This document shows positions 8,298-55,886 of a stretch of 64,000 nucleotides of DNA, piece after piece. The DNA lies in contig CP130629.1 in assembly GCA_030644725.1 (NCBI GenBank), forward strand, positions 3,983,501-4,047,500. The letters run 5' to 3'. Under the pieces are notes generated by a model. The model worked only from the letters and a program-made list of their open reading frames with translations, did no database searches and was not told the origin of the DNA. Made by a program: the position numbers and the translations under genes. Source of the stretch: Candidatus Electrothrix communis (lineage in GTDB: Bacteria > Desulfobacterota > Desulfobulbia > Desulfobulbales > Desulfobulbaceae). How positions within the stretch are numbered: position 1 is the stretch's first letter; every line of letters begins with the position of its first letter.

Positions 8298-8519
8298 TTG
8301 TACTGAGTTCGGGTTATCGGGTTAGGGTGACCGGCTTGGTTGTACAGTTGTTTCACGGTTTGTTTGCAGGAAAGGAAGAGGCGGCTTAAGGATAAGGAAA
8401 GATGAAAGATTGGCTTCACCGTCATGCGTAGTGAGTGGTGATGTGTTGAAGCAGAATCTTGAGCAAGCCTCAATCCTATGCGATCTATGCGATATCTACA
8501 GAATGAGGAGGAGAAGAGC
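8298..8519 (+). other. Intergenic region before the transglutaminase locus
   Basis: 222 bases separate the signalling operon from the transglutaminase locus. No terminator hairpin with a T run is evident and no reading frame looks real. A strong GAGGAG ribosome site ends the region. Confidence 0.5.
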
Positions 8520-10238
8520 ATGGCTACACCGGAGGAAAAGCATAACTGCTTTCTACTGAATTTTTTTAAGGGATCTGCTGATCGGTCTTCAGCACCGGGA
8601 TCGGATACAGCAACCGAGCCGCCAATATCGTCTGAGACTGATCTAGGCCAGGGGCAGGGGCAGGCAGAGACGAGCACAGATACTGTTCCTGTTTCTACTC
8701 CTGATGCTGATGCTGTTCGCAATACAGCCGGTGAAGTTGATGAAGCTGATGAAGCCGGTGATCTGCAAACGGATGAAGACCAGATCAACGCAGGGCTAGA
8801 GGAATTGCAAGCAGATCCTGTCGCGTTTATGGACAAGCTACCTGTAAAGTATGATGAGCAGGGGGAGCAGGTCAGTTCGGAAGCCTCAGCCTCGCTTTTC
8901 GACGATGAGGCGGTCAAGGAGAAGGTCTTTGTTGATGCCCGTGACGGAAAGCGGCAGGAGATAACCGAGCTGGATGCCATTGCTGCCGGGCGGGCTGCGT
9001 TTGCGGAGAATGATCAGGCAGATGGCTTTGTTGATACCTTTCCGTACTCGGGATTGCGAGTAATGGAAGATAATGGGTTGATGAGCGCTCGGTTGGAAGA
9101 GCAGCCTTGGTCTGATGATTATTGGGCCATTTATCTGGGGATGCTGGGTCATCGCTATGCTGATTCTCGTTTTCCTGGGACCTGGGATTGGAAGGCCAAC
9201 TTTGATTATATCCAGAATAATCCAGCCTTGCAGATTGTGGAAAGCGGCAATAACGATGCCGTGAATCGACTCTCCCCCTCGGAGAAATATGATATTCTGG
9301 TCGGCGATAAAAATATGACCCTGACTGGGAAGATGTGGGAGGAGGGAAAAAAATATTACGCCCGCAATGGTAAGGTGGAGCCGTGGATGGGACTTTGTCA
9401 TGGCTGGGCACCTGCTGCCTATATGCTCCCCCGACCGACCGCCTCTGCAACAGTCCTGGCAGCGGATGGAAAAACATTTATTACCTTTTATCCCTCCGAT
9501 ATTAAAGCACTGGCGACCTTGCTCTGGGCAAAGGTCAAAACAGCATCGCGATTTATTGGCGGGCGTTGTAATGAAAAGAATCCGGCAGTCGACCCGCAGA
9601 CCGGGCGAATTTTGTCTGGAAAATGCTTTGATACTAATCCCGGTACCTGGCATCTTGCAGTGGTTAACCAGGTAGGGGCTTCACAGCGCAGTATGGTCCT
9701 TGATGCCACCTATGATTATGAAGTTTGGAACCAGCCTGTTGTTGCGTATAAGTACAGACACTTCAATCCGCAAAAGATGCGTTATGCCCGTTCTCTGGCC
9801 GAGGCCTCTGTTCTGAAAACAGGTTTTGATAACGATAGGTTTAGGAAATATCGAGACGGAGAGACCGATACCATTGTCGGGATTGCTATGGATATCTCCT
9901 ATATTGTGGAGACGCGTCCTGACCACCGCTTAACAGACAGTTCCAAGTACGATAGGGTGCAGACAGTTCGTTATTATTACGATCTGGAGCTTGATGCTGT
10001 GGGTAATATTATCGGCGGCGAATGGTATCAGAATGCGCACCCAGATTTTCTCTGGACTCCTGAGAAAGGGACCAGGGCTGTTTCCTATTGGGAAAATAAG
10101 TATGGTATATCAGGGGTATGGAAAAGTGAAGAGCCGCTTTCCAAGGAATGGTGTCAGGTTGCGGCTACGACATCAGGATATCAGAAGGCGCCCCTGGCTG
10201 TTATTGTGGAGCAGCTCATTCGATTTTCCAACACCTGA
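8520..10238 (+). CDS. Elicitor-type transglutaminase-like protein, paralogue 1
   Basis: 572 residues from the ATG at 8520, chosen because GAGGAGGAGAAG precedes it; an in-frame ATG at 8478 has no such site. The first ~110 residues are acidic and low-complexity (D/E/A/T-rich) with no signal peptide or membrane helix. The rest is a globular domain resembling the bacterial relatives of the Phytophthora GP42 transglutaminase elicitor (Pfam TGase_elicitor), recognised from the WMGLCHGWAPAA motif with candidate catalytic Cys293, and NPGTWHLAVVN with candidate His378 followed by an Asp-rich strand. The expected reaction is Gln-Lys crosslinking or deamidation. A second copy lies at 12645, with a caspase between them. 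The family assignment rests on remembered motifs; the lack of an export signal is unusual for the family. Confidence 0.7.
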   Translation: MATPEEKHNCFLLNFFKGSADRSSAPGSDTATEPPISSETDLGQGQGQAETSTDTVPVSTPDADAVRNTAGEVDEADEAGDLQTDEDQINAGLEELQADPVAFMDKLPVKYDEQGEQVSSEASASLFDDEAVKEKVFVDARDGKRQEITELDAIAAGRAAFAENDQADGFVDTFPYSGLRVMEDNGLMSARLEEQPWSDDYWAIYLGMLGHRYADSRFPGTWDWKANFDYIQNNPALQIVESGNNDAVNRLSPSEKYDILVGDKNMTLTGKMWEEGKKYYARNGKVEPWMGLCHGWAPAAYMLPRPTASATVLAADGKTFITFYPSDIKALATLLWAKVKTASRFIGGRCNEKNPAVDPQTGRILSGKCFDTNPGTWHLAVVNQVGASQRSMVLDATYDYEVWNQPVVAYKYRHFNPQKMRYARSLAEASVLKTGFDNDRFRKYRDGETDTIVGIAMDISYIVETRPDHRLTDSSKYDRVQTVRYYYDLELDAVGNIIGGEWYQNAHPDFLWTPEKGTRAVSYWENKYGISGVWKSEEPLSKEWCQVAATTSGYQKAPLAVIVEQLIRFSNT

Positions 10239-10366
10239 GTACTGAGTAACTGAACTCTGAGCGTTGAGACGCTGAACTGATCGCATGTCCAGTAGGAAAT
10301 TACAGGGACAGTTTTATTATGCTTTTTCATCATAGGTGCCTGCAAAGTCTGCAAAGAATAATAAGG

Positions 10367-11368
10367 ATGAAGAATGAACACCACGCCATAGTTATCGGGC
10401 TCAACAGCTACCCGGTGAGCGGTTTGCCCGCATTGAAAGGGCCGGTGAATGATGCTGAGGATTTTTCTGCCTGGCTGCGTGACCCGCAGGGCGGCAATGT
10501 CCCAGAAGAGCATATTCAGCGTATCTTATCCACGGATTTTGAGAAGGATGCCGCCTTACCTTTCCCGAATCAGATTGAAGCCTTATTTGAGCCCTTTGTT
10601 ACCAAGGGCGTGCAGGGAAGATGCGGTGAGCGGCTCTATATTTTTGTGGCTGGTCATGGCTTCGGTGCTCCCGGTAATATGGGAACAACAGCGCTCTATG
10701 CTGCCAATGCGCAGAAAATGTTTCCCTGGCATGTGGCCATCACCGATTATGTGGATTGGCTGCGGCGTCATGCGGTTTTTGATGAAATCGTTTTGTTAAT
10801 GGACTGCTGCCGCACCATAAATTCTTACCATGAGGTGAAAGAGCCTCAGTATCCCACGACAAAGGGAAGAACCGGGGCAGACCGGGTGCGCTATTTTTTT
10901 GCCTTTGCTGTGGGGAGAGGGCGAGTGGCCCGGGAAAGGCGCTTTGAAGACGGTAGAGATTCGGGCATTTTCACCAGGACATTTTTGTATGCCTTGCAAA
11001 CAGCTCGACCCAAGCGGGGCAGGGTGACCGGGCAGCAGGTCAAGGATCAGATCCATAACAGTATTGACACCTTTGCCGGTGATGCTCATATCGAACCGCC
11101 TGAGATCAGGTTGGACTCATCATTGGATATCACCTTTCTTTACCGCAAATCAGCGCAAGCTGTTCCGGTCAGGGTGGTGCTGGAATCCTATAAGGGTGCT
11201 GAAACCTTGGTGCTTTCCGATGGAAATTTTCAGAAAATTAGGGAAGAAAAGGCGGACTCATCAAGCCTGACCCTGGAGCTGGAGCCCGGACTTTATAAGA
11301 TTGCGGTGAAAAATACAGACCGTCAGCAAATATTCGAGGTGCCGAACCATGCAGGAATTATCGTCTGA
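10367..11368 (+). CDS. Caspase-like cysteine protease (peptidase C14 fold) with C-terminal beta domain
   Basis: About 333 residues. It opens directly with the caspase p20 pattern: HAIVIGLNSYP, then LKGPVNDAEDF. The catalytic His97 is in VAGHGFG and the catalytic Cys is the second Cys of LLMDCCRT (about residue 148, by alignment with the D-x-C-[HR] consensus). The last ~80 residues form a beta-rich domain that is also found at the N-terminus of the next protein. There is no signal peptide, so it should be cytoplasmic. An in-frame ATG at 10319 would add 16 residues; I chose 10367 because the fold begins immediately after it. The gene sits between the two transglutaminase paralogues and overlaps the next gene by 20 bases. 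Confidence 0.87.
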   Translation: MKNEHHAIVIGLNSYPVSGLPALKGPVNDAEDFSAWLRDPQGGNVPEEHIQRILSTDFEKDAALPFPNQIEALFEPFVTKGVQGRCGERLYIFVAGHGFGAPGNMGTTALYAANAQKMFPWHVAITDYVDWLRRHAVFDEIVLLMDCCRTINSYHEVKEPQYPTTKGRTGADRVRYFFAFAVGRGRVARERRFEDGRDSGIFTRTFLYALQTARPKRGRVTGQQVKDQIHNSIDTFAGDAHIEPPEIRLDSSLDITFLYRKSAQAVPVRVVLESYKGAETLVLSDGNFQKIREEKADSSSLTLELEPGLYKIAVKNTDRQQIFEVPNHAGIIV

Positions 11369-12518
11369 GAGGCAGATCAGGCTCACTGTTCGAGCGCATG
11401 ATAGTTTGAGTGAAATTTTTCTGGTCAACAGTCGTTTTCAGAAGATAGCTGCTGATGTCGGGAAACTTGAGGCCTTGGTTGCGCCGGGCATTTATAAAGC
11501 CCGGTTTCGTATCGGGCAAAAGCAGGTTGACCAGCTCATTGAGGTGTATCCTGGAGCAGGCCCTCTGGAGATTAATGGTATCCCAGTAGATTTTAGTTCG
11601 CCGGTTCCTTTGGTCGGGATAGGCACGGACCGGGATGTACATCGGAACGCTGCCGAGAAATTTTCCAGATCAGCTGCTGAGCAAAAAGGGGAAGGCTCAT
11701 GGCTTTTTCTTTTTATCCGGGAGAGCGTCGAGTCTGCATCGGGATCTGTAACAGTATCTGGCTCTGCCCCTTGGGCAGGAGTGACCCTGCACAATCTTGA
11801 CGGCACGCTCCTTGCTGAGCCGAGTCAGGGAATTTGTGACCAGGAAAACGGATTTTTTGCCCTCCATCTTGAGGTTGATCCGGGAACCTATCGCCTGCGG
11901 GTGGAGGAAGAGCCGGGAGAATCCTATGAGATGTTTATCAGGACCTTTACAGGCTGGCAGACGCAGATTTTTGCCTTGTCCGAAGAGGCCTGGCTCTCCG
12001 ATGTTGATGCATACCGGCCTGCCTTGCCCTCTGCTTCTGTGTTGATGGCGGAAGCGGGTCAAGGTTTTGATGCAGGAAATGAGATCGCTCGTCAGGTAGA
12101 GCTTCTCCGGCTCGGTCTGCTGCACGGACGCAAGGTCGTCACAGAGGCTGCTGTGGTCAGCCTGCTCAAGGAGGAGCGCTTGAACCCTATGCAGGTTATC
12201 TTGGCAGCGCATTCTTTGTCAGGACAGGGAGGCACTGGTGTCGTTGATGTCACCTCGCTGTCTGCCCTGCTAAAAAAGCTGTCTGCTGATTTTTTCGAGC
12301 ATCCAGATCTTCAGGCACTTATGCGGCATCAGGCGGCTGAAATGCGCCCGGTTTTTCCGGCCCCGCCAATGCTCCGTTCCAGTTGGGATCGGATCAATCA
12401 GGCGGTCGAGCAAAGAAAGGTGATTATCCCGCCGGGTTCCTTGACCGCTCAGATTGCTGGCGGTTTGCTGGCCACATCTCTGTGGCTTATCCATCGCCTG
12501 GACAGTATGGAAATTTAG
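11349..12518 (+). CDS. Unrecognised beta-domain protein coupled to the caspase
   Basis: 389 residues, no recognised family. Its first ~85 residues resemble the C-terminal domain of the upstream caspase: FQKI, then PGIYK, then a closing EV strand, at matching spacing. A weaker third copy seems to follow (about 125-215; GVTLHNLDG, DPGTYRLRV), so the protein is probably two or three Ig- or carboxypeptidase-regulatory-like beta-sandwiches. The C-terminal ~160 residues are mostly helical, with a hydrophobic stretch near the end (GGLLATSLWLI) that might touch a membrane. It starts inside the caspase gene, 20 bases before that gene's stop, with GAGGTG upstream, so translation is coupled. A partner, substrate or inhibitor of the caspase is possible; this is inference. 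Confidence 0.75.
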   Translation: MQELSSERQIRLTVRAHDSLSEIFLVNSRFQKIAADVGKLEALVAPGIYKARFRIGQKQVDQLIEVYPGAGPLEINGIPVDFSSPVPLVGIGTDRDVHRNAAEKFSRSAAEQKGEGSWLFLFIRESVESASGSVTVSGSAPWAGVTLHNLDGTLLAEPSQGICDQENGFFALHLEVDPGTYRLRVEEEPGESYEMFIRTFTGWQTQIFALSEEAWLSDVDAYRPALPSASVLMAEAGQGFDAGNEIARQVELLRLGLLHGRKVVTEAAVVSLLKEERLNPMQVILAAHSLSGQGGTGVVDVTSLSALLKKLSADFFEHPDLQALMRHQAAEMRPVFPAPPMLRSSWDRINQAVEQRKVIIPPGSLTAQIAGGLLATSLWLIHRLDSMEI

Positions 12519-12644
12519 ACAAGGGAAGGCCGTTACACCGGCTTACGTTTCGTTGCAAAGAAAGACAAACATCTCTCCCATCAGAAGTTTGGAATGATAG
12601 GGAGGAAAGAAATATTTTACTCGTAAAATCAGGAGGAGAGAATC

Positions 12645-14114
12645 ATGTCTGATGGACAGGGAAAAGAGCTAAATACGGGCGTGCAGGAATTTCATGAGAA
12701 TCCTGTGGAGTTCATGAATCGAATTCCCTCAAAATATGACGGGGAAGCGCTTGATTCCTCGGGTGTAAGTATGTTTGACCAGGAAGGTATTGAGCAGAAT
12801 ACCCATGTCGAGGCCCGTGATAGGTTGCGCAAGCAGGTCACTGAACGAGATGAGATCGCTGTGGGAAGGGCTGCCTTTGCTGATAATGACGAGGCGGATG
12901 GCTTTGTTGACGAACTTCGTTGTTCCGGCCTGCAGAGTATGGAAGATAATGGGCTTATGCGTGCCGGTCTGAAAGAATCTCCTTGGTCTGATGATTATTG
13001 GGCGCTGTATCTCGGTTCGCTGGGGCATCGCTATGCGGACCCCAGTTTTCCTGCTTCAGGGGATTGGAAAGAGAATTACGATTACATCAAACAATACCCG
13101 GCTGCCGAGATTGTGGCGCAGGGAAACACTGAGGCGATCAATCGTCTTTCCCCGGCAGAAAAGTATGATATCCTTATCGGTGATATCGATTATTCGCTGA
13201 CGCGAAAGATGTGGGAGCAGGGAAGGAAATATTATGTGCGGAGCGGGAAGGTCGAGACCTGGATGGGTCTTTGTCACGGCTGGGCTCCGGCTTCCTATAT
13301 GTTGCCCCGGCCCACAGGGAAAGCCACGGTTCTCGCTGCTGACGGAGAGACCTATCTTACCTTTTATCCCGCTGATGTTAAGGCGTTGGCCACGCTGCTT
13401 TGGGCAAAGGTGAAATGTCGTTCCCGGTTTATCGGGGGGCGTTGTAATGACAAAGACCCGGCCAAGGATCCGCAGACCGGTCGTATTCTCTCCCCTATTT
13501 GTTTTGACACCAACCCTGGTACCTGGCATCTGTCCATCGTCAATCAGATAGGAGCCTCCCGTCGTAGTATGGTGATGGATGCCACCTATGATTATCAGGT
13601 CTGGAATCAACCGATCCTGTCCTATAGTTACCGTTATTTTCATCCGAAAAGTATGTATTATGCGGATTCGGTGGCAGAGGCGAGAGTGGCAGCCGGTGAT
13701 TTTACCAATGATAAGTTTGCCCAATTTCGCAGTAATGATACGGATAGTATTGTCGGGATTGAGATGAAGGTTTCTTATATCGTCGAGAAAACTCCAAATC
13801 ATGCGGAGGCCGACAGCCCTGCGGATGATCAGGTGAAAACCGTTGTGTATCTCTATGATCTTGAGCTTGATTTTGCCGGAAATATCATCGGCGGAGAATG
13901 GTATCAGAATGCACACCCCGATTTTCTCTGGACCCCGGTCCAGGGTGAGCAGCTCATGACGGCAGCAGAACGGCATATTTCGTTGACAGAAAATTGGCAG
14001 AGCGGTCAGCCCTTGGCACAGCAGTGGCAGCAGAGTGCTTCAATGGCTGCGGAATATGAGCAGGCCCCGTTGGCTGCGATTGTGGAACAGTTGATCGGAT
14101 TTTCAAACAGCTGA
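12645..14114 (+). CDS. Elicitor-type transglutaminase-like protein, paralogue 2
   Basis: 489 residues, clearly paralogous to the 8520 gene along its whole length (shared WSDDYWA, GHRYAD, RLSP.EKYDIL, GLCHGWAP, RFIGGRCN, NPGTWHL and GGEWYQNAHPDFLW), but without the acidic N-terminal extension. Candidate catalytic residues are Cys210 in WMGLCHGWAP and His295 in GTWHLSIVN. There is no signal peptide. A strong AGGAGGAG ribosome site precedes the ATG. Both copies keep the putative active site, which argues that both are functional rather than one being a relic. The 126-base gap after the beta-domain gene could hold its own promoter. Confidence 0.7.
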   Translation: MSDGQGKELNTGVQEFHENPVEFMNRIPSKYDGEALDSSGVSMFDQEGIEQNTHVEARDRLRKQVTERDEIAVGRAAFADNDEADGFVDELRCSGLQSMEDNGLMRAGLKESPWSDDYWALYLGSLGHRYADPSFPASGDWKENYDYIKQYPAAEIVAQGNTEAINRLSPAEKYDILIGDIDYSLTRKMWEQGRKYYVRSGKVETWMGLCHGWAPASYMLPRPTGKATVLAADGETYLTFYPADVKALATLLWAKVKCRSRFIGGRCNDKDPAKDPQTGRILSPICFDTNPGTWHLSIVNQIGASRRSMVMDATYDYQVWNQPILSYSYRYFHPKSMYYADSVAEARVAAGDFTNDKFAQFRSNDTDSIVGIEMKVSYIVEKTPNHAEADSPADDQVKTVVYLYDLELDFAGNIIGGEWYQNAHPDFLWTPVQGEQLMTAAERHISLTENWQSGQPLAQQWQQSASMAAEYEQAPLAAIVEQLIGFSNS

Positions 14115-14185
14115 TAAGATTTGATAAAAGATGATAAGAGCTGGTGTCCCTTCCCGGCTTTGGTCGGGAATATGGAGCTGATTTT

Positions 14186-14857
14186 ATGAATAACCTTGTT
14201 TATAAAACCTCTCTTGCCGTTGTTCCCCGGCTTTATGTCGCCTTGACCAGTATCTGGTTCGGTACCTGTCCTGTACAGATTCGAGGGCAGGAGAACTTGG
14301 AGAAAGTAATGGGTCAAGGGAAGGCTGCGGTAGTGCCGATATGGCATTATTCAGTCTTTTATATGCTTTACTATCTGCGCCAATATCCCGGCGTGGTTAT
14401 GGTTAGTGCGAGCAAGGACGGTGAATACATTGCCCAGGTGGCCGGTCTTCTCGGCTTTGAGACGGTGCGCGGCTCAGCCAATCGTTTCGGGGTCAGGGCT
14501 TTGAAGGGGATGGTGGATCATGTCAAGCAGGGTAAGGCCGCCGGGATTGTTGCAGATGGCTCCCAGGGGCCGCCTTTGAAGGTGCAGCCCGGTGCCATCA
14601 TGCTGGCGGCAAAATCCGGCTCGCCGATCATGCCCGTTGTCTGGGCGACAAAGCGCTATAAGGCCTTTAATTCCTGGGATCATTCGGTCATCCCCATGCC
14701 TTTTAGTCCCATTATTCTGCAATGCGGTGAGCTAATTTATGTGGAGCCCAAGTTGACCTCTGCGCGGGTGGAGGAATACCGACAGCAGGTGGAAACGACC
14801 ATGAACAGCATGTATCAGGAGCTTTGGCAGGAGTTTGATCGGGACGGGCATGTGTAA
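14186..14857 (+). CDS. Lysophospholipid acyltransferase-like protein (DUF374 family)
   Basis: About 223 residues. An N-terminal hydrophobic region is followed by the DUF374 pattern: VVPIWHYSVFY in place of the acyltransferase His motif, ASKDGEY, VRGSANR and ADGSQGPPLKVQPGAI. DUF374 proteins are relatives of the acyltransferases that modify lipid A or phospholipids and act at the inner membrane. The ATG at 14186 is preferred because GGAG lies 8 bases upstream; a GTG at 14144 in the same frame has no ribosome site. It follows the second transglutaminase by 71 bases in the same direction, so co-transcription is possible, but a functional link is unproven. Confidence 0.85.
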   Translation: MNNLVYKTSLAVVPRLYVALTSIWFGTCPVQIRGQENLEKVMGQGKAAVVPIWHYSVFYMLYYLRQYPGVVMVSASKDGEYIAQVAGLLGFETVRGSANRFGVRALKGMVDHVKQGKAAGIVADGSQGPPLKVQPGAIMLAAKSGSPIMPVVWATKRYKAFNSWDHSVIPMPFSPIILQCGELIYVEPKLTSARVEEYRQQVETTMNSMYQELWQEFDRDGHV

Positions 14858-17139: not shown

Positions 17140-17445
17140 GTTAATCTTGAACTTACGTCGACAGAACCGCCTCCGGTGCTTTATCATGGAACGGCGACTC
17201 GTTTTCTCCCGTCAATTCGCTCTCAAGGTCTGCAAAGCATGAGTCGTCTGCATGTTCATCTTTCTGGAACAAGGGCGCAGGCGTACCGGGTTGGTGCTCG
17301 GCACGGGCGTCCTGTGGTGTTGGAAATTGACGCAAAGGGAATGGCTGATGCCGGGCATCTGTTTTTTCTGTCCGCTAACGGCGTTTGGTTGACGGAGGTT
17401 GTGCCTGTTGATTTTATCAGGAACGATCTTATAAAAATGGTCTGA
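17140..17445 (+). pseudogene. kptA: C-terminal half of RNA 2'-phosphotransferase (KptA/Tpt1)
   Basis: The frame encodes only the NAD-binding C-terminal lobe of KptA: homology begins near VNLELTSTEPPP, before any obvious start, and continues through LYHGTATRFL, RLHVHLSG and FLSANGVWLTE to a normal-looking end. The N-terminal RNA-binding lobe of about 90 residues is absent; upstream of 17140 is panE in another frame. The first possible start is GTG at 17176 (89 residues), with no clear ribosome site. The simplest reading is a 5'-deleted remnant. However, the ADP-ribosyltransferase-like lobe keeps its YHGT motif, and its stop is only 3 bases from the NACHT gene start, so a coupled, repurposed protein cannot be excluded. 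Confidence 0.7.
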
Positions 17446-17448
17446 AAT

Positions 17449-19560
17449 ATGCCTCTGGAAATCCTGAATTTTATCAAGCCCGCGTGGATTAAGCCGCTTT
17501 GGAAGAAGCTCGGGCGGATAAGCGATGAGCGCAAAAAAGAGCTGGCTCGTTTGCGGGACGAATTTGTTGATCCGGAAACCCTGAAGGGACTCTATATTGA
17601 GCCGTTTTTGCAGGATCGCAATCCGGCGGATGTGATGCAGGAGGATCTGCTGGCCGCAGCCCGCCAACCTGCTTTTGAGCGGATCAACGAGTTTTTTCAG
17701 GGGAGCCTGCCTTTAGAAAAGGACGGGCGGCACCAGATGTTCATCCTCTCTGATGCTGGAATGGGCAAGACCTCCCTGCTGCTCATGATCAAGCTCATGC
17801 ATCTGACCAGCTTCTGGCCGAAGGGACATCATTGTGCTCTGTTCAAGTTGGGAGATGATACTCTGAAGCGGGTACAGGCCCTCCCGAATAAGGGGGAGAC
17901 AGTACTTCTGCTGGACGCCTTAGATGAAGATCCGCAGGCTTGGAAACGAATTCGTGACCGCTTGCTCGATCTGTTGCAGGCCAGTGAGGATTTTCGTCGG
18001 GTGATCATCTCCAGCCGCACCCAGTTTTTTCCGGAAATGGAATCAGACCGACTTGGTCGCCCGGAGATCAAGGTGCTGTCCGGTTACCACTGTCCGGTGC
18101 TCTATCTTGCTCCCTTTACCGATGTTCAGGTACAGGAATTCATTCATCGAAAATTGCCCCTGAGCTGGCATCATCATCTTCGTTTGCAGGCCGGACGAAT
18201 CAAGAAAGATCGGGAAAAGGCTGTCCGGTTGTTGGAGCATATGCAGGATCTGCGGATGCGGCCTATGTTGCTCCAGCATATCGACAAGCTTCTTGTTGCA
18301 GACTGCCAACAGGAGTGGAATGCCTATACGGTGTACGAGGCCTTGGTGGCTGAATGGCTGGACCGGGAGGTGCGTAAGCTTCGGGAGCAACATAAAAACC
18401 GGCGAGTACCGGAGCGTAAAGAGTTGTTTCATGCTTGTTTGCGGATTGCTGAGCAGATGGAGCGGGGCGGAGGTGATCGGAGGATTATCTCGGAAGAGGA
18501 GCTGCGGCAGCTGATTGAGGCAGATGAGAATATTGCTTGGTTGGAAAAGTTTGAACTGGGCGGGCGTTCTCTGCTTAACCGGAATTCCGATCGTGCCTTT
18601 CGCTTCAGCCATTATACGATACAAGAATTTCTCTTGGCTTGGGGATTGGTTAATAAGCAGCTTGTCGGTAAGGAACCGTTGCGGGCTACGGACCAGTTGT
18701 TGCGGTTTGTTGATTTTGCTGATGGAATCGCTGAGTATTTTGATCAGATAACCCTCCCAGAGACATTTGATCCGGTTGCCTATGTCAGGCGATACAGGGC
18801 CTCTTGGCCTGTTCCTGTGCAAATACAGCATCGGCTCCGTAACGGTGCCATTGGCCCGGACATGGTGCTTTTGCCCGGAGGCCGTTTTCAGATGGGCGAT
18901 ATTCAAGGGGATGGACGTGGAAATGAACGACCGGTGCATGAGGTAGAGCTGGACAGCTTTGCTATTGGTCGTTATCCGGTCACCTTTGCTGAGTATGATA
19001 TCTTTTGTGAGGCCACTGGCCGTGAAAAGTCGAACGATCAGAGCTGGGGCAGGGGACAGCGACCAGTGATTAATGTCAGATGGGAGGATGCTGTCGCCTA
19101 TTGTGCGTGGCTGAGCCGGGAAACCGGCCATACCTATCGCCTGCCTACGGAGGCGGAGTGGGAGTATGCCTGCCGAGCGGGCAGTGCATCCAGTTGGTGT
19201 TTTGGTGATGATGAGGCCGGTCTTGGTGAATACGCTTGGTACGATAAAAATGGCGAGAAGCAAACCCATCCGGTGGGCGAAAAGAAGGCTAATGCTTGGG
19301 GGCTGCACGATATGCACGGCAATGTCTGGGAATGGTGTGGGGATTGGTACGGAGAAAAGTATTACGCTGACTGTCAGCGGCAGGGGACAGTGAAGAGTCC
19401 TCCGGGGCTTGCACAGGGGAAAAGGAGGGTTATTCGGGGCGGTTCCTGGGACGACTTTCCTAGCAACGCCCGTTGCTCCTTCCGCAACTGGGACTTTCCT
19501 TACCTTCGGTACTTCAGCGTAGGGTTTCGAGTGGTGTTCTCCCCGGCTGCTGGTTCCTGA
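17449..19560 (+). CDS. NACHT-type STAND NTPase fused to C-type-lectin/FGE-sulfatase domain
   Basis: 703 residues. The NACHT-like module carries Walker A SDAGMGKTS (Lys107) and Walker B VLLLDALDED (Asp156), an ISSRT sensor and a helical region. From about residue 465 a formylglycine-generating-enzyme-type domain runs to the end (LPGGRFQMGD, PVTFAEY, RLPTEAEWEYACRAG, GNVWEWCGDW, VIRGGSW..GFRV). The catalytic cysteine context of true FGE enzymes is missing after RGGSW, so this is likely a ligand-binding C-type lectin fold. The last 40 residues look like a DGR variable region. There is no recruited effector domain at the N-terminus, and no good ribosome site; translation may be coupled to the kptA fragment 3 bases upstream. 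The expected role is a conflict sensor in the cytoplasm. Confidence 0.88.
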   Translation: MPLEILNFIKPAWIKPLWKKLGRISDERKKELARLRDEFVDPETLKGLYIEPFLQDRNPADVMQEDLLAAARQPAFERINEFFQGSLPLEKDGRHQMFILSDAGMGKTSLLLMIKLMHLTSFWPKGHHCALFKLGDDTLKRVQALPNKGETVLLLDALDEDPQAWKRIRDRLLDLLQASEDFRRVIISSRTQFFPEMESDRLGRPEIKVLSGYHCPVLYLAPFTDVQVQEFIHRKLPLSWHHHLRLQAGRIKKDREKAVRLLEHMQDLRMRPMLLQHIDKLLVADCQQEWNAYTVYEALVAEWLDREVRKLREQHKNRRVPERKELFHACLRIAEQMERGGGDRRIISEEELRQLIEADENIAWLEKFELGGRSLLNRNSDRAFRFSHYTIQEFLLAWGLVNKQLVGKEPLRATDQLLRFVDFADGIAEYFDQITLPETFDPVAYVRRYRASWPVPVQIQHRLRNGAIGPDMVLLPGGRFQMGDIQGDGRGNERPVHEVELDSFAIGRYPVTFAEYDIFCEATGREKSNDQSWGRGQRPVINVRWEDAVAYCAWLSRETGHTYRLPTEAEWEYACRAGSASSWCFGDDEAGLGEYAWYDKNGEKQTHPVGEKKANAWGLHDMHGNVWEWCGDWYGEKYYADCQRQGTVKSPPGLAQGKRRVIRGGSWDDFPSNARCSFRNWDFPYLRYFSVGFRVVFSPAAGS
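19441..19545 (+). other. Candidate diversity-generating-retroelement variable region
   Basis: This segment encodes residues 665-699 of the NACHT-lectin protein. Within the RGGSW...GFRV frame, nearly every non-conserved position uses an NNY codon (GAC GAC TTT, AGC AAC, TGC TCC TTC, AAC, GAC TTT, TAC CTT, TAC TTC AGC), the pattern expected if AAY codons of a template were mutated at adenines. The invariant Pro, Arg, Gly and Phe positions are preserved. No template repeat, reverse transcriptase or Avd gene is in the window, so any template must lie elsewhere. Confidence 0.5.
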
Positions 19561-39332: not shown

Positions 39333-41771
39333 TCACCCTCTCTGCTTCCGACCCCATTGTCTTCTTCTGATCCATTCATTGAAGTCAATGCCGATGCCAG
39401 AAATATTTGGCTTCAGTATAAACACCTCCTTCTCGTCCATCTGCGCTTGTATAATCCGCTCACTGTCCGGCTTCTCCACCAAACCCAGTAGCTCACTGAC
39501 GTTATACGCCCTCTTAGCTCCATCAGGCCGAATGCGTTTGATGCCATCCTGCATACAGCCAAGCAAGGTCTGGTAGTCAGCACTGCACACCGGGTCATCG
39601 GGCATGGGGATGCGTTCGCTGACGTTGAGTTTTTCAAAGCTGTCGTTGATATCCAACAGCGTGAACCAGAGGAAGCTGAGATACTCCTTGCGGCGTGGGC
39701 CATGCACCCAGAGTTGAATGCGCCGAGCCTCCATATCCGCTTTAACCGCAGCCAGTAAGCCACTGGCCTTATCCTCCAATACCACACCAGTACGCCAGCA
39801 TAGACCCGGCTTGATACTTTGATGTACCTTGACCATGAAGCGAGGAAAGACCGAGGGCGGCAGGAATTCTTGATAATGAAGAACGAAACCCAATGATCCG
39901 CTATAGTCAAAGGCGAATTCCGGTTCATCGACAGGAAGGAGTTGCGGGAGGAGCACTGTCTGCTCGTTGATGCCCCAGCATAGCTGAAACTTCTTCATTA
40001 ACTCCAGAATAAATACATGTGTATGCACCGGCCAAGAGTGCTTTTCCCCCTCTTCATGCCGCAGGATTTCCGTCAGGTTGGCCAAGTGCAGAAGACCGTA
40101 GCTGTCTGCCATCTTCTTGGCCGTGATGATCTTATACACCGCCTGCGTCACCCAGACCGGATCAAGTACATGCATGGCATTCAGAACGTAGTCATCGAAA
40201 TACACGACTGCGCCCAGATCATGAAGGAAGCTAACCAGCATTTTTCGATTTTCCTCCTCGGCAATGCCTGCCTTTTTGCAGATGCCTGCGTATTCCTCGC
40301 AGCTGATGCAGGGCTTGTCCGACTGCTTTATGGCCTGCTTGACCTGAAACCAGCTCTGCGGCCAGCGGATGTCGATCATCGGCACCTTGCCCAGCTCTTC
40401 GATGAGGGCTTTTTTAAAGTCGGCAACGCCCTCGCCGCTCTTGCAGGAGGTGGAATAGAAGCCTTTCACCGCTGGATACTTGCGTTGCAGATGTATCCGG
40501 TTAAGGTCAAAGGCGCTGTTCTCATCCTGCTTGTTGAGCACGATCAGTACAGGTGAGTCGCCGCCAAAGCTCTCGATATGCTGGAGCCAGTATTCGGGCC
40601 GTTCGTCCTTGCGGACATCAAGCACGAGGACATACAGGCTGCGCTTGGACAGGAAGAACTGGTGCGTGGCATGCTGGATAACTTGGCCACCAAAGTCCCA
40701 GATATTGATTCTGATCTTTCTGCTGCCGATATCCTGTTGCCAGTCTTTAATATTGATACCATGCGTAGTGTCCTCGTGATGGTCAAAGGGCAGATCGAGC
40801 AGCCGCTTGACCAAGGAAGTCTTGCCTGCCGCGCCGTCACCGACGAGGATGACTTTGACCTCGTTGAGGGGCTGATCTTTTGGTTGGAGGAGGACAGGGT
40901 TGGAAATCACTCCTATTGAGGTGTCAGGTTCAAGGGCAGCGAAATAATGACGGATGGCTTCGATGCCCTTCGTGGCTATTTCATACGGCGGGGAGATGAG
41001 GGGGTTGCGACCGAAGTAAAGCCCCGCTAGATTAGTGAGCTTGCAGATTTCTTGCGGCAGGCTGCTGAGATGGTTATTGCTGAGGTTAAGATTCATCAGG
41101 TTCGTGAGCCAGCAGATTTCTGGCGGCAGAGTGGTGAGTTTATTATCCAAGAGGATAAGTGTTTGTAGATTTGTAAGTTGGCAAATCTCCGATGGGAGGG
41201 TCTTGAATAAATTATTGCTGAGGTTAAGCTCCGTCAGCTTCGTAAGCTTGCCGATTTCTGGCGGCAGGCTGCTGAATTTGCTGTGGCGAAGGTCAAGTCT
41301 TGTCAGTTTCGTAAGATTGCCGATTGCTGGCGGCAGGCTACTGAGATGGTTGTGGCCCAGGTCAAGCCTCGTCAGGTTCGTGTGCTTGCAGATTTCTGGC
41401 GGCAGGCTGCTGATATAGTTACTGTAGAGGTCAAGCACCTTCAATTTCGTGAGTTTGCAAATTTCTGGCGGCAGACTGCTGAACTGGTTGTGGCGCAGGT
41501 CAAGCTTCGTCAGCTTCATAAGCTGGCAGATCGCTGGCGGCAGGCTATTGAGGCGATTGTTACCGAGGTTCAGTATAGTCAGGTTAGTGAGCTGACCGAT
41601 TACTGGTTGAAGGGTGCTCAACCGGTTGCCGCTGAGGTAAAGCTCAGTCAGGTTCGTGAGCTGGCCGATTTCCGGCGGCAGTTTCTTCAACCCTTGTCTG
41701 CTCAGGTCAAGCGTCGTCGCTCCGCTTGCCTTTGCCTCCTCTATCTTTTTCAGCACATCTTCATTGGTCAT
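39333..41771 (-). CDS. LRR-Roc-COR family GTPase (ROCO protein)
   Basis: 812 residues. Ten full 23-residue leucine-rich repeats plus a partial one (about 20-270; LTxLDLxxNxLSSLPPEI) lead to a Ras-of-complex GTPase domain: G1 GDGAAGKTSL, G3 WDFGGQ, G4 NKQD. A COR domain follows (about 480-700; LHDLGAVVYFDD, LDPVWVTQAVY) and a short charged tail. Bacterial ROCO proteins are cytoplasmic homodimers whose GTP cycle alters the dimer; their cellular role is mostly unknown, and some are found in conflict loci. The LRRs are encoded by a 69-base periodic DNA repeat, so copy number may vary. Accessory genes and repeats surround it. Confidence 0.95.
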   Translation of the reverse strand: MTNEDVLKKIEEAKASGATTLDLSRQGLKKLPPEIGQLTNLTELYLSGNRLSTLQPVIGQLTNLTILNLGNNRLNSLPPAICQLMKLTKLDLRHNQFSSLPPEICKLTKLKVLDLYSNYISSLPPEICKHTNLTRLDLGHNHLSSLPPAIGNLTKLTRLDLRHSKFSSLPPEIGKLTKLTELNLSNNLFKTLPSEICQLTNLQTLILLDNKLTTLPPEICWLTNLMNLNLSNNHLSSLPQEICKLTNLAGLYFGRNPLISPPYEIATKGIEAIRHYFAALEPDTSIGVISNPVLLQPKDQPLNEVKVILVGDGAAGKTSLVKRLLDLPFDHHEDTTHGINIKDWQQDIGSRKIRINIWDFGGQVIQHATHQFFLSKRSLYVLVLDVRKDERPEYWLQHIESFGGDSPVLIVLNKQDENSAFDLNRIHLQRKYPAVKGFYSTSCKSGEGVADFKKALIEELGKVPMIDIRWPQSWFQVKQAIKQSDKPCISCEEYAGICKKAGIAEEENRKMLVSFLHDLGAVVYFDDYVLNAMHVLDPVWVTQAVYKIITAKKMADSYGLLHLANLTEILRHEEGEKHSWPVHTHVFILELMKKFQLCWGINEQTVLLPQLLPVDEPEFAFDYSGSLGFVLHYQEFLPPSVFPRFMVKVHQSIKPGLCWRTGVVLEDKASGLLAAVKADMEARRIQLWVHGPRRKEYLSFLWFTLLDINDSFEKLNVSERIPMPDDPVCSADYQTLLGCMQDGIKRIRPDGAKRAYNVSELLGLVEKPDSERIIQAQMDEKEVFILKPNISGIGIDFNEWIRRRQWGRKQRG
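41030..41715 (-). repeat. 69-base periodic coding repeat (LRR array)
   Basis: The leucine-rich repeats of the ROCO gene recur every 69 bases with strong DNA similarity (on the plus strand the unit GATTTCTGGCGGCAG recurs). It is coding, not CRISPR; unequal recombination could change repeat number. Confidence 0.7.
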
Positions 41772-48711: not shown

Positions 48712-48741
48712 CTCTCTCAAACATTTCAATGTTTGAGAGAG
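48712..48741. other. Perfect hairpin at the tgpA stop codon
   Basis: CTCTCTCAAACATT and AATGTTTGAGAGAG form a 14-base stem with a two-base loop spanning the tgpA stop. No T run follows, so it is not a standard terminator. Confidence 0.45.
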
Positions 48742-50756
48742 GGAGCGGAAGAAGGTTGAGATGAAGAGGAGGTGTCTTCCAGCCAAATTTCTCCCTGAAG
48801 TTCTTTCAGCACCGCATCGACCTCTTTTGCTAACTGAGCCTGCTGTGGAGCTGTCAGCCCTTTTTTGCCGAATCGCCCTTGATAGTACAGACGAAGACAG
48901 GAGTGAAGGCTATCAGAAAGTATCTTCAGGGAGTCTGTTGGTCTCATGCGTTGAATCCAACTGAGAGGGGGCTCCCAGGGATTTCGTTCAAAGCCCAACT
49001 CGTTCAAGCGCTGTTCTATTCGGTAAAACGGGGATTCTTCCAGCTGACTCTGCTCAGTTTTTTTCTCGATATCTGTTCGTACCCGTCGAATTTTCCTCCC
49101 TGCCCGGAGTCTTTTGGCAAGAATAATCATAAGTGGAAGAAGAAGGATCCACCACCATTTTTTCAATACCCCTTCCTCGGTTCCCCAGCGCCACTGAGAA
49201 AATTTAAACATTATGAATGACCAGAGATCCAGAAAAATGTGTAGGTTTGAGGATGCGGCTGCATCTTCAGTCTCAATCCAGGAAGAAGAAGTGGTGTCCA
49301 GATTGCTCCATATCCCGTTCATGTATACCATAGTCCAGGCATGGGCATGCCGAGCACGTACCACGATTTGCTCTTCTAACGTGCTCTCTTCATGGGCGGA
49401 CCAGCCTGTGGCGTAGCGGGCCGGAATGCCACAGGCGCGGAGGAGCAGAACTGTCGCTGTGGCAAAGTATTCGCAATGGCCAGCACGGGACGTGAGGAGA
49501 AAGGTCGCTAATGAGGTACTGCCCTGCTCAGCAGCACGCAGTTTGAGGGAGTAGTTGAACTGATTCTGAAAAAAATCAGTGAGCACCGAGGGTATTTCTT
49601 CGGGCTTTCTGGATTGAAGATCCAGCTCTTCCATGATCTGTTGGATTGCAGGCAACTCTTCCTGCGGAACAATCAGGTCTCTTTCAGATGGAGGCAAGTC
49701 TTCGCTTATATCCAAATTATAGCGCACCTGATAACCGATCAAGCCAGGACCATCGTCGACTTTAACGGCCCCCAAAGGCGTCTTTTTTAAGATCGTTACC
49801 GGAAGATTTTGTAATTGATAGGTTCCCAGAGGTAAGGTGAGCATCCCTTTCTCATTGGCCAGTGGACTCCAGATCGTGAATGACTTACCGTTCCCCGGAT
49901 CAGCTTGCAGGTTCCAGGTCGTGAGATCTTCTTCTGCTGTGACATCGGAAAACTGTGCCGGAGATGCGTGCCAGGTTGTGCCGCGATAGAGGTTATAGCT
50001 TGATTCCCGCAACAGGACCGGTTGAAACGGTTTATTTCCAGGCGTGACCCGGAAAACGATCCGGTCAGAGAGTTTCAGTTCTCCGATATCACCCATGGAG
50101 GTACTTCGTTTAAACGGATCGCTGTTTTTAGCAAGCCACCAATTGCCGACCATCCTCATAGCTACTTTTTGGAGATGGTACACCCCGAGCTGGCCAGCAA
50201 ATCCTGCCCCTCCAATGAGCACCAAGAGCAAAAACCACAGGGTTGGGGAAAAACGTTTGGACCGCTGCGGCCAAAGTGCCCATGCGGTAAAGAGGAGCAT
50301 TCCTACGAAGAAACTCCCGTCTTTGACGTTACCCGTTCCGGCTGCCAGTAGGCAAAGAGCGGCATAGTGAGGAGCTATATCTATCGTTCTGGGTTTATTA
50401 TCTGCTGCAACGGCTTTGTTGCGGGCAAGCAGCATCAAGGAGCGCAGGTCAATTCTTCCTGCCACACTGTATTGCTGGGCAGCAAAGAGCGGGAAACAGA
50501 TTGCAGGTAACCACCTGAGGGTTTTCATCGCAACTCTGGCGGCATCAGTTGTGAGAAGGAAAACAGCAAGTCCAGCCAGTATGATTGAACAGATATCAGT
50601 GATTCGATTGAAATCAGTCTGAGAGAGATCCCATTTTGTTGTGACATACCTTGATCCTTCAATAAGTAGCGCCATGGGCAGCGCTAAGAGGAGCAGATCG
50701 GTCTGCCAACCCCAGAAGAGGAGGATTGCGCCGGAGAAGAAAGGGGGAAAGGTCAT
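48726..50756 (-). CDS. tgpA: TgpA-like membrane transglutaminase (DUF3488/transglut core)
   Basis: 676 residues. An N-terminal block of several membrane helices (DUF3488) is followed by a large periplasmic domain with a transglutaminase-core fold: catalytic Cys in SRAGHCEYFATA, His in RARHAHAWTMVY and Asp in SNLDTTSS, then a further membrane helix (WWWILLLPLMIILAKRL) and a cytoplasmic tail. TgpA is essential in Pseudomonas and is usually encoded right after moxR and a DUF58 gene. Here the two partners lie at 56824 and 58185, with about 6 kb of other genes between. A perfect hairpin overlaps its stop codon. Confidence 0.93.
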   Translation of the reverse strand: MTFPPFFSGAILLFWGWQTDLLLLALPMALLIEGSRYVTTKWDLSQTDFNRITDICSIILAGLAVFLLTTDAARVAMKTLRWLPAICFPLFAAQQYSVAGRIDLRSLMLLARNKAVAADNKPRTIDIAPHYAALCLLAAGTGNVKDGSFFVGMLLFTAWALWPQRSKRFSPTLWFLLLVLIGGAGFAGQLGVYHLQKVAMRMVGNWWLAKNSDPFKRSTSMGDIGELKLSDRIVFRVTPGNKPFQPVLLRESSYNLYRGTTWHASPAQFSDVTAEEDLTTWNLQADPGNGKSFTIWSPLANEKGMLTLPLGTYQLQNLPVTILKKTPLGAVKVDDGPGLIGYQVRYNLDISEDLPPSERDLIVPQEELPAIQQIMEELDLQSRKPEEIPSVLTDFFQNQFNYSLKLRAAEQGSTSLATFLLTSRAGHCEYFATATVLLLRACGIPARYATGWSAHEESTLEEQIVVRARHAHAWTMVYMNGIWSNLDTTSSSWIETEDAAASSNLHIFLDLWSFIMFKFSQWRWGTEEGVLKKWWWILLLPLMIILAKRLRAGRKIRRVRTDIEKKTEQSQLEESPFYRIEQRLNELGFERNPWEPPLSWIQRMRPTDSLKILSDSLHSCLRLYYQGRFGKKGLTAPQQAQLAKEVDAVLKELQGEIWLEDTSSSSQPSSAPSLKH

Positions 50757-52980: not shown

Positions 52981-54699
52981 TTATGACAGTTCCTGATAAT
53001 CAATACTTAAAAATCTTTTTTGCTTTGTGAATGCGGCGCATGTGAAATCGTCAAAGTCAAGATTAATGTTCTCCAGGTCTTCTTGAGAAATCATATCTCT
53101 GTTAAGGGTAAGTATATATTGCCTATTTGATAATTTTCTTAGAGTTTTATGAATATAGTTTAAATTTCTTACCAGAGTATCTCTGTCTACCTCGAAGATG
53201 TTGTCATGAATAAGCAATCCGGGATGCTTTTCGTTGGTTTCTGATAAGGTAAGTAAAGCATAGTCATAGAAGAAGACTTTTTCTCGGTCAATACTATGAC
53301 TTCCATCGTCGTGAATCCGCAAGTCAAATTTGACTATTTCTTTGTTATTTTTCACGTTAACTTCAAAAGAGCACTGTTGATTTCCGTAAACATATTCATG
53401 AATTTCTAAGATTATATTTTCTATATCTTTTACGGAATCTTTAGCTTCAATGATATATGAATCTAGTAAGTGAATTTGATTTTTTCTTTTAATATCCTTG
53501 TCTTTACGTTCTTGTTCGTAATGGCTATATGCCTCAAGAAAGGAATTCAGAGAAGAGTATTCTTCTATTTTTTGTTGATGAATCGCTATAGTCCTTTTCA
53601 AGCTTTTAAAAATTCCCTCTTGATCAAGCAATGATGTTTTTTCTTTATATCGCTTGTCTAAAGCTTTCAATTCTTCAGAAATTACGTTAAGTTCGCTAAC
53701 TACATATTCTTTACGTTCATTAATTAATGAGCGTTGGAAATCATCAATCTTCTTTTTGAAAGCCGATACTTCAGAAAGTTCTTTTTTGATAAGGTCGCCT
53801 AGCCCATCTTTGAATTGATTATAAAGATCTGCAACTTCATCTTCATCAATGTAATTATCACCTTTAAATAGCTGAATTTTTGAAAGTTCAGACTTCAAAA
53901 CTTCTTGCCGAGTATGTTTTTCTTCTATTATATCTTCTAGTTCGATAATTTCAGATTTAACAATATCGAATCCCTCGATGTTTTCAAGCTGATCGATGTC
54001 TTTCTGTGTTTTTTCAACTTGATTCTTTAGGTCATTGAGATCAGCTTTAGCTTCAGAAACATTTTTACCTGTTAAAATTTCAATATTTTCTTTTACTTTT
54101 GATTTTGCAGCTCTAATTTTGTCCAAGTCCCGAAAGAGTTGTCCCGCTTGATTGTACGGAGCTGGATTCACCCCGAGTAAATACAGGTGAGGCTCGTAAT
54201 TCGGGGGTATTCTTTTGTCGGTATCAAAGCATTTAATAATCGACTTAAATTCAGATTTTTCATCACGAATTAGTGGCCCTAGCATAGACCTAAAAGAAGG
54301 TGATTCATTTGTGCTTGTTGTGCCGAAAGTTAAGGAAGTCAAATATTCTAATACCTCACTTTTGGATGCTAAAGGTTTTTCTTTTCCGTTTACTAAAAGT
54401 CGTGGGTATTCGTCTTTAAATACATTTCGTCGTATTGTGATTGACTTGTCGTCAATTTCAAAATCCAAACAGATTTCAAAGTTTTCAGGAAGGTCATTTT
54501 TGGGAATTTTTGAGACCCTACTTCTGGCATGATCTTTCAATAATGCATAGTTAATAAATTCTACACACAAAGACTTACCAACGCCGTTGGTTTTAACGGT
54601 TTTGTCGGTTGTTTCGCCAAATATAATATTGAACCCATTATTGAATTTTATTGGTTCAAATAAGGTTGGTTCGCTGTATAGTCTTTTAATCGTTAACAT
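52981..54699 (-). CDS. ABC-3C system ATPase (DUF2326 domain)
   Basis: 572 residues. The N-terminal ATP-binding segment has the long Walker A region GETTDKTVKTNGVGKS with a conserved LCVEFINYALL strand, a long coiled coil (about 190-430) and a C-terminal half with LLIHDNIFEVDRD, an SMC/Rad50-like layout and the DUF2326 signature. In ABC three-component systems this ATPase pairs with a middle component and an effector. Its start overlaps the middle component's stop by 14 bases. The codon use is distinctly AT-rich relative to neighbours, which suggests transfer. A cytoplasmic role in sensing invasive nucleic acid is proposed for the family, not shown here. Confidence 0.85.
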   Translation of the reverse strand: MLTIKRLYSEPTLFEPIKFNNGFNIIFGETTDKTVKTNGVGKSLCVEFINYALLKDHARSRVSKIPKNDLPENFEICLDFEIDDKSITIRRNVFKDEYPRLLVNGKEKPLASKSEVLEYLTSLTFGTTSTNESPSFRSMLGPLIRDEKSEFKSIIKCFDTDKRIPPNYEPHLYLLGVNPAPYNQAGQLFRDLDKIRAAKSKVKENIEILTGKNVSEAKADLNDLKNQVEKTQKDIDQLENIEGFDIVKSEIIELEDIIEEKHTRQEVLKSELSKIQLFKGDNYIDEDEVADLYNQFKDGLGDLIKKELSEVSAFKKKIDDFQRSLINERKEYVVSELNVISEELKALDKRYKEKTSLLDQEGIFKSLKRTIAIHQQKIEEYSSLNSFLEAYSHYEQERKDKDIKRKNQIHLLDSYIIEAKDSVKDIENIILEIHEYVYGNQQCSFEVNVKNNKEIVKFDLRIHDDGSHSIDREKVFFYDYALLTLSETNEKHPGLLIHDNIFEVDRDTLVRNLNYIHKTLRKLSNRQYILTLNRDMISQEDLENINLDFDDFTCAAFTKQKRFLSIDYQELS

Positions 54700-54928
54700 T
54701 TAAAATTATATAAGGTTCGTCAAATTCAATTATTTCCAGAGAATAAAGGAATAATATTCCATAATAAAGGCTTTTGGCTCCGATTTTGTTGCTTTTCCTA
54801 AGTGAACGAGCAGCATCAAAGATGCTAATCATACGACTGTTAGAAGTATTCAATAGCTTCAAAATCTCAGACCCTATTACGGGAGCTGATTTTTTAAGAT
54901 TCTCATTTTTTGAAACTAAATTAGCCAT
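54686..54928 (-). CDS. ABC-3C middle component (MC6-like)
   Basis: 80 residues. A helical winged-helix-like protein (MISIFDAARSLRKSNKIGAKSLYYGILFLYSLEIIEFDEPYI) that matches the short middle components of ABC three-component systems. It overlaps both neighbours (8 bases with the SMEK gene, 14 with the ATPase gene), the tight spacing expected of a single operon. No enzymatic residues are apparent; it probably bridges the ATPase and effector. AT-rich like the rest of the cassette. Confidence 0.75.
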   Translation of the reverse strand: MANLVSKNENLKKSAPVIGSEILKLLNTSNSRMISIFDAARSLRKSNKIGAKSLYYGILFLYSLEIIEFDEPYIILNVND

Positions 54929-55886
54929 TTTTCACCATCCTATTAGGAAAGACATTGCACTTGATTAATTGGTCTACTATGTAGAACTCGGCAGCACATG
55001 AGTCAAAGGAAAATCCGAGGTTAGAAAGGTGACTTTTAAAGGCATCTACTAGTCGTTGTAAGGCTTCTCTGGGATTACCACCGCATTTGGTTAGCACATC
55101 ATCGCTGTAACCTTTTAAGTACGTTCCCGCTCTACGTAATGCCTGTGATCCTATATCACTTTCTTCGTTTATTGTGGTTAATACTTTTCCGTATTCGATA
55201 TAAAGGTCATAGTATCTATTTGTCAAGTGTTCCGCATGATCGGAAAAACGTTTATGTATCTTGTTGTTTGGATCTGGATCTTCAATAAAGCCATAACCTG
55301 CATCCGGGTGTTGTTCATTGCTGAGCAATTCAATCATTGCCAAAATAGTATTAACTTCATTTGGCAGAGTAGATGTAGGCTGATCGTGCAATTCTTTGAC
55401 CAGAAAGTCCTGAATGGATTTAATTTGCTCTATGTTGTTTATGTATTTAATTTTTTTTAAAACATTGTCAATGTCCCAAATATCTTTTTGAGTGTTAATT
55501 TTGAAATTTTCATCACCAATTTTTTCTTCTTTGTGTTTGCTTTTTTTAACGATGTTTAGAATTATTAATCTGTCGTAGCTGTTGAACAACTTGTATTCAA
55601 TAAATTTATCTACAGTACGTTTAGTTTTTGTTAGACTGGATGTAGAAGTTACCTGAATTGCGATTTTATTTTTTAAATCTTGTAGGTCTATCGCAGCGGC
55701 GTTTGGAGCAAATTGGTTCGCGTTCTTTAAGTTGTAACCGTAAACCAGGTTCAACAACTGCTCGTAGAAGTCTTCAGAGAAATTGTTTGCGTCAGTCAGG
55801 TTGAGCTTATTGCTCGATTCCACCAGCTTCGGCAGGCGCGTAAGTAGATTGATTATTTTTGTTATATATTCCTGTTTTTTAGTCAT
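54921..55886 (-). CDS. ABC-3C effector-side protein with SMEK domain
   Basis: 321 residues, first gene of the operon. The N-terminal ~150 residues match the SMEK domain (AIDLQDLKNKIAIQVTS, then YDRLIILNIV), whose ID...QVTS strand pair recalls nuclease-like folds. The C-terminal half is helical with a Cys-containing closing segment. SMEK proteins are found with ABC-3C ATPases and are predicted effectors or sensors; catalytic activity is unproven. There is no ribosome site of note. The upstream region is AT-rich and presumably holds the operon promoter. Confidence 0.8.
   Translation of the reverse strand: MTKKQEYITKIINLLTRLPKLVESSNKLNLTDANNFSEDFYEQLLNLVYGYNLKNANQFAPNAAAIDLQDLKNKIAIQVTSTSSLTKTKRTVDKFIEYKLFNSYDRLIILNIVKKSKHKEEKIGDENFKINTQKDIWDIDNVLKKIKYINNIEQIKSIQDFLVKELHDQPTSTLPNEVNTILAMIELLSNEQHPDAGYGFIEDPDPNNKIHKRFSDHAEHLTNRYYDLYIEYGKVLTTINEESDIGSQALRRAGTYLKGYSDDVLTKCGGNPREALQRLVDAFKSHLSNLGFSFDSCAAEFYIVDQLIKCNVFPNRMVKNG

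Follow-up and report, generated by a model that had tools for sequence, protein, structure and literature searches.

The Canu system, which defends against T4, relies on a caspase whose C-terminal part is a beta domain; in complex with CanB this caspase converts a pro-nuclease into the active enzyme (PMC12799240). The pairing of a caspase with an alpha/beta hydrolase is known from the VMAP (MoxR-vWA) ternary conflict systems, and trypsin and NucA/PLD domains are likewise recognised as conflict-system parts (PMC7159879). The GP42-type transglutaminases form a family with an unusual "CH" catalytic motif (PMC10318531). We describe here an operon of Candidatus Electrothrix communis in which a caspase-like protease (CASP) and a partner protein (ORF3) are encoded together with two transglutaminases of this type (TGase 1 and TGase 2). 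It lies in a stretch of 64,000 nucleotides (G000:C1:3983501–4047500; hereafter the window), part of a one-contig genome of 4.85 Mb, and its closest relatives are the operons of Candidatus Electrothrix species, with protein identity of up to 89%. Cable bacteria are centimetre-long, electrically conducting multicellular filaments and are among the best cases of bacterial multicellularity. With about even confidence, we interpret the operon as a domesticated, effector-swapped member of a modular family of bacterial caspase conflict or cell-death systems, one that works in the manner of Canu and has protein crosslinking as its output.

The four genes all lie on the + strand and form a single operon. 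TGase 1 and CASP are separated by 80 bp, CASP and ORF3 overlap by 20 bp, and 126 bp separate ORF3 from TGase 2.

TGase 1, 8520..10238, + strand: TGase_elicitor-type transglutaminase without signal peptide; papain-like fold and CH motif (PF16683, 3TW5).
CASP, 10319..11368, + strand: caspase-like protease with a C-terminal CnaB-like beta domain at about residues 277-345 (PF00656, PADLOC caspase).
ORF3, 11349..12518, + strand: partner of CASP, with an N-terminal CnaB/transthyretin-like beta domain, a second beta region and a helical C-terminal part.
TGase 2, 12645..14114, + strand: core-only paralogue of TGase 1 with an intact CH motif (PF16683).

In several ways the operon resembles Canu (KaeCanABC; PMC12799240): both encode a caspase whose C-terminal domain is a beta domain, together with a partner in the neighbouring gene and an enzyme effector. 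The caspase of Canu is MALT1-like, and MALT1 is the top caspase match of the low-confidence CASP model. The effector of Canu is a metallo-beta-lactamase (MBL)-fold pro-nuclease (CanC) whereas here it is a transglutaminase, and the C-terminal domain of CanA is Ig-like whereas that of CASP, in a low-confidence model, fits CnaB/SpyCatcher best. The operon is not Canu itself, as Pfam revealed no nuclease family among its four genes. VMAP systems have in common with seven of the 11 CASP+ORF3 loci without a transglutaminase (see below) a caspase beside an alpha/beta hydrolase. ORF3, by contrast, has no family-model match and in the window a transglutaminase replaces the hydrolase; a VMAP ternary system was ruled out since Pfam found no MoxR, vWA or VMAP gene among ten genes (4.6–19.6 kb). 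CASP also weakly matches the caspase model of the EACC1–caspase systems (PMC7159879; NF047832), but at 44 bits against a cut-off of 140. The upstream gene is TGase 1 and not an EACC1 transmembrane protein, and CASP has no variable C-terminal effector fusion; this assignment was also rejected. NucA and trypsin domains, as in the NucA-trypsin system (PMC7159879), occur beside or fused to rhizobial relatives of ORF3 but are absent from the window operon. Finally, the GP42 elicitor of Phytophthora (3TW5) and its homologues in Vibrio and Bdellovibrionota share PF16683 and the CH active site with the window TGases but are secreted, whereas the latter belong to a clade without signal peptides. A first-pass annotation of this DNA knew of no described system with this composition and, indeed, the operon is not reported in the open-access literature searched, where there is also no joint mention of cable bacteria with caspase or transglutaminase. 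We regard it as a previously undescribed module of caspase and partner that is equipped with a new effector and, unusually, is nearly part of the core genome in a multicellular lineage.

CASP and ORF3 are separable from the TGases. By a CASP+ORF3 module we mean a CASP that immediately precedes, overlaps or is fused to ORF3 and lies beside an enzyme gene; in the window, CASP overlaps ORF3 and the TGase genes are adjacent. Searches with CASP and ORF3 identified 11 further loci without a TGase:

CASP+ORF3 loci without TGase: Hahella (L131); a desulfobacterote (L139, genome G1184); an IMG/VR contig with a tyrosine integrase nearby (L146).
CASP+ORF3 plasmid loci: Mesorhizobium (L135, L137); Sinorhizobium (L138, L140); Rhizobium (L141–L143); Cupriavidus (L136).

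Members of one alpha/beta-hydrolase family are found directly upstream of the module in seven of the 11 (Hahella, G1184, L146, three Rhizobium plasmids and M. onobrychidis). Two have an upstream matrixin/astacin-type (metzincin) metallopeptidase, the two enzymes being 56% identical, one has an upstream subtilisin and one a downstream NucA–trypsin protein. CASP and ORF3 are a single fused protein in Cupriavidus and Sinorhizobium terangae, which implies a physical partnership, and in two other loci trypsin–PLD or trypsin–NucA domains are fused to ORF3 (NucA was assigned in L140 and L142 from record annotation and sequence motifs). Several module loci are carried by conjugative plasmids or lie close to an integrase (L146) or to transposases. 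Trees constructed separately for CASP and ORF3 contain the same effector-specific clades, the TGase clade included, indicating that CASP and ORF3 are inherited as a pair and have become specialised for their enzyme. Together, the swapped-enzyme loci (L131, L135-L143 and L146) apparently constitute an unnamed defence-like family. Since the same protease–partner pair occurs elsewhere beside lipase-like enzymes, proteases and nucleases, the operon has the appearance of a self-defence or cell-death device with swappable effectors, here with protein crosslinking as the weapon. The cell-fate or conflict role proposed in the first-pass annotation thus gains comparative support, because CASP+ORF3 recurs on mobile elements beside other predicted effectors.

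ORF3 was found in only one of 369 gammaproteobacteria (Hahella, around which that draw was centred), two of 345 Desulfobacterota (one being the window's own genome) and one of 175 cyanobacteria (again the central genome of its draw). None of 189 Myxococcota, a set without a positive control, had ORF3. Phage records contained no ORF3 and IMG/VR a single match.

In cable bacteria the operon is a conserved set of intact genes with intact active-site motifs. PF16683 is present in all eight genomes of the Electrothrix genus and all five of a sister genus (g12), which we take to be Candidatus Electronema from inference only; elsewhere in the order (258 genomes in all) there are matches in just two genomes, both partial and weak. 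The arrangement TGase1–CASP–ORF3–TGase2 is syntenic in Electrothrix, flanks included, although split over two short contigs in one incomplete genome. The sister genus retains TGase1–CASP–ORF3 with different flanks; TGase 2 is adjacent in one of its genomes and on other contigs in the others. ORF3 is single-copy in 12 of the 13 cable-bacterial genomes, all 12 of which retain the order TGase1-CASP-ORF3, and is lacking in G075 (95% complete). The ratio of nonsynonymous to synonymous substitution rates (dN/dS) is 0.07–0.24 for the four genes, all of which are under purifying selection. ORF3 of the draft genome G074 includes one TGA within the searched frame. In the draft genome of Ca. Electrothrix aarhusensis (L034/L114; L034 11756-12840), CASP is split over two frames and is either a pseudogene or an assembly error.

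CASP matches PF00656 (4e-7; 30.4 bits against a cut-off of 21.4) and the PADLOC caspase model (5e-17). Its catalytic H113 and C164 (in GHG and DCC) are invariant across relatives, and the GHG and D-x-C motifs occur in 18 of 18 module caspases. Its true start may be at 10367. ORF3 has no family match in Pfam, NCBIfam or PADLOC. An hhalign comparison of CASP 277-345 with ORF3 3-70 (E 8e-5, probability 61%) indicates that the N-terminal 70 residues of ORF3 and the C-terminal domain of CASP are homologous; the caspase had earlier been described as coupled to a protein sharing its beta domain, in agreement with this result. Whole-chain AlphaFold models have low confidence, with a predicted local distance difference test (pLDDT) score of 46 for CASP and 50 for ORF3. 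The caspase core and the C-terminus of ORF3 are modelled too poorly to be used, and only the beta domains and the overall fold of the caspase are considered here. With this limit, MALT1 is the top caspase match of the CASP model (Z 8.4), the CASP C-terminal domain fits SpyCatcher/CnaB best (Z 8.2), and both this domain and the ORF3 N-terminal domain fit a CnaB/SpyCatcher/transthyretin-like beta-sandwich (Z about 8).

Both TGases belong to PF16683 (TGase 1: 2e-41, 142 bits; TGase 2: 6e-39, 134 bits; cut-off 25 bits), and TGase 1 matches the solved Phytophthora transglutaminase 3TW5 at 7e-28. The first-pass annotation had identified two paralogues with Cys and His motifs flanking the caspase and had made the system idea depend on the Cys motif being the active site. 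LCHGW is present in each protein and corresponds to the GP42-type CH motif, whose Cys is conserved in 91 of 91 homologues and the neighbouring His in 88. Crosslinking activity is predicted from the family and from this motif. Although the TGase 1 reading frame opens at 8478, a MATP... start at 8520 is conserved among relatives and is probably the true one. The N-terminus carries the motif KHNCFLLNFFK (conserved as M[AS]...KHxCxxxNxxK), then a variable acidic linker and then the core; KHxCxxxNxxK could be a docking or localisation element. The suggestion that the caspase cuts the acidic linker is doubtful. In the alignment the Electrothrix linker is acidic, that of the sister genus is rich in Cys and His, and TGase 2 has no linker at all; this rules the linker out as a conserved caspase site. 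The Cys/His-rich form (L119, L121, L122 and L124; for example CGCGSPSESTPSCCDHSHDHAHDQPHGHSH) resembles a metal-binding segment. The conductive fibres of cable bacteria use nickel.

Neither TGase has a signal peptide. This had been proposed earlier and agrees with an N-terminal hydrophobicity scan, used here in place of a trained predictor, in which no hydrophobic N-terminus was seen. Among 78 loci from public genomes, signal-like hydrophobic N-termini do occur in the TGases of Bdellovibrionota, most Myxococcota, Vibrio, Hahella, Zooshikella, Shewanella and Chitinimonas. Those of cable bacteria, of one cyanobacterial contig from a metagenome-assembled genome (MAG) and of filamentous gammaproteobacteria (Thiothrix, Thiolinea, Thiofilum, Leucothrix, Cocleimonas) do not, and these 35 proteins form one clade in the tree (Shimodaira–Hasegawa-like approximate likelihood ratio test, SH-aLRT, 97). 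Secretion does not define PF16683 as such, but its absence sets this clade apart. One Polyangia TGase outside this clade is likewise devoid of a signal peptide. The simplest reading of the tree is that secretion was lost once and that transfer among mostly filamentous bacteria followed. Signal peptides in relatives had been considered a point against a caspase–TGase system: they occur in most relatives, which stands against the idea as first stated, but are absent throughout the cable-bacterial clade.

CASP/ORF3 lies near the TGase in only one of the 71 non-cable TGase loci, although some of these contigs are short and absence applies to the available sequence. A general co-occurrence of this TGase family with caspases, on which the system idea had been made to depend, is therefore ruled out beyond cable bacteria and one cyanobacterium. 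What matters as a unit is CASP+ORF3. The exception (L038), on the Crocosphaera MAG contig, has the order CASP-ORF3-TGase, with CASP 54% and ORF3 46% identical to the cable-bacterial proteins. Its flanking genes are cyanobacterial-looking and it is the only PF16683 locus among 386 cyanobacterial genomes searched, which suggests acquisition by transfer. In Thiothrix-type bacteria, no coherent partner recurs beside the intracellular TGase. Leucothrix pacifica and a relative (L046, L049) encode a giant protein (about 2050 aa) directly upstream of it.

How might the operon work? CASP and ORF3 would form a protease–partner complex, as the natural fusions suggest, and would sense an internal trigger. 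By analogy with Canu, active CASP would then switch on the co-encoded intracellular TGases, either by cleavage or by release from inhibition. These would crosslink cell proteins through glutamine-lysine isopeptide bonds, and that cell of the filament would be killed, arrested or sealed. More specifically, and more tentatively, caspase-gated crosslinking may be a death or sealing programme of the multicellular filament in which the caspase complex turns on the TGases in a doomed cell. Several observations weigh against this interpretation. The action of CASP on the TGases is a step that we infer; the linker in which cleavage was proposed differs between the genera and is missing from TGase 2; and the structural models are of low confidence (pLDDT 46 and 50). 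The proteins of this clade, predicted transglutaminases, could instead function as peptidases or amidases. No CASP/ORF3 is found near the gammaproteobacterial intracellular TGases in the available contigs, and these must therefore work without a caspase there. Lastly, near-universal vertical retention in cable bacteria differs from the patchy pattern of typical defence systems.

This retention in a multicellular lineage would also fit a developmental or cell-fate role. Caspase-controlled TGases might crosslink intracellular or envelope proteins in normal filament life, for example in septa, in ridge or fibre anchoring or in sealing dying cells, with no anti-invader role. The near-universal, single-copy and vertical presence in both cable genera, the strong purifying selection and the concentration of the signal-peptide-less, elsewhere caspase-free clade in filamentous bacteria all agree with such a role. 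We nevertheless find it rather unlikely: CASP+ORF3 is found elsewhere on mobile elements with conflict-type effectors, the 95% complete cable genome G075 manages without the module, and the TGases have no export signal.

The PF16683 proteins might instead be peptidases or amidases rather than crosslinkers, in a purely proteolytic cascade comparable to the module versions that carry a subtilisin or a metalloprotease. Their papain-like fold is compatible with this, other versions place peptidases at the same gene position, and transglutaminase-like thiol peptidases are known in conflict systems (PMC7159879, PMC8195603); the GP42-specific CH-type active site, in 88 of 91 homologues with the Cys in all, makes it improbable. 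That the caspase–ORF3 pair and the TGases are separate systems and merely adjacent is very improbable. It would explain why their linkage is absent beyond cable bacteria and one cyanobacterium and why TGase 2 occupies another locus in part of the sister genus, but not why the order TGase 1-CASP-ORF3 persists in 12 of 12 ORF3-bearing genomes despite genus-specific flanks, why the linkage recurs on a cyanobacterial contig with such divergent proteins, or why an analogous enzyme-CASP-ORF3 order exists in unrelated bacteria.

The span first proposed as one locus (8520-14857) also includes an unrelated gene:

DUF374 acyltransferase-like gene, 14144..14857, + strand: PF04028 (7e-24), 29 bp downstream of TGase 2.

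It is syntenic with the operon only in Electrothrix, is not beside it in the sister genus, and is probably outside the system. Elsewhere in the window, a NACHT/STAND-like NTPase region (a sub-threshold match) is fused to an FGE-sulfatase (C-type-lectin-fold) domain at 17449-19560, adjoined by a KptA/Tpt1-like fragment at 17176-17445. Such FGS proteins are candidate antigen sensors of conflict systems. A Roco protein with leucine-rich repeats and Roc and COR domains is encoded at 39333-41771, and a TgpA-type transglutaminase-core protein, unrelated to the operon TGases, at 48726-50756. A low-GC island (about 35-40%) at 52981-55886 encodes DUF2326 and SMEK-domain proteins and resembles a defence island of the ABC-three-component type.

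If our interpretation of the operon as an effector-swapped caspase system is correct, protein crosslinking would join the caspase-triggered effectors of bacteria, as a class for which the literature searched gives no precedent among prokaryotic conflict systems. The process would be comparable in function to the transglutaminase step of skin cornification, with an independent origin. The swappable enzymes of the unnamed CASP–ORF3 module would also predict further defence loci, and the operon would make cell death in cable filaments accessible to genetics.

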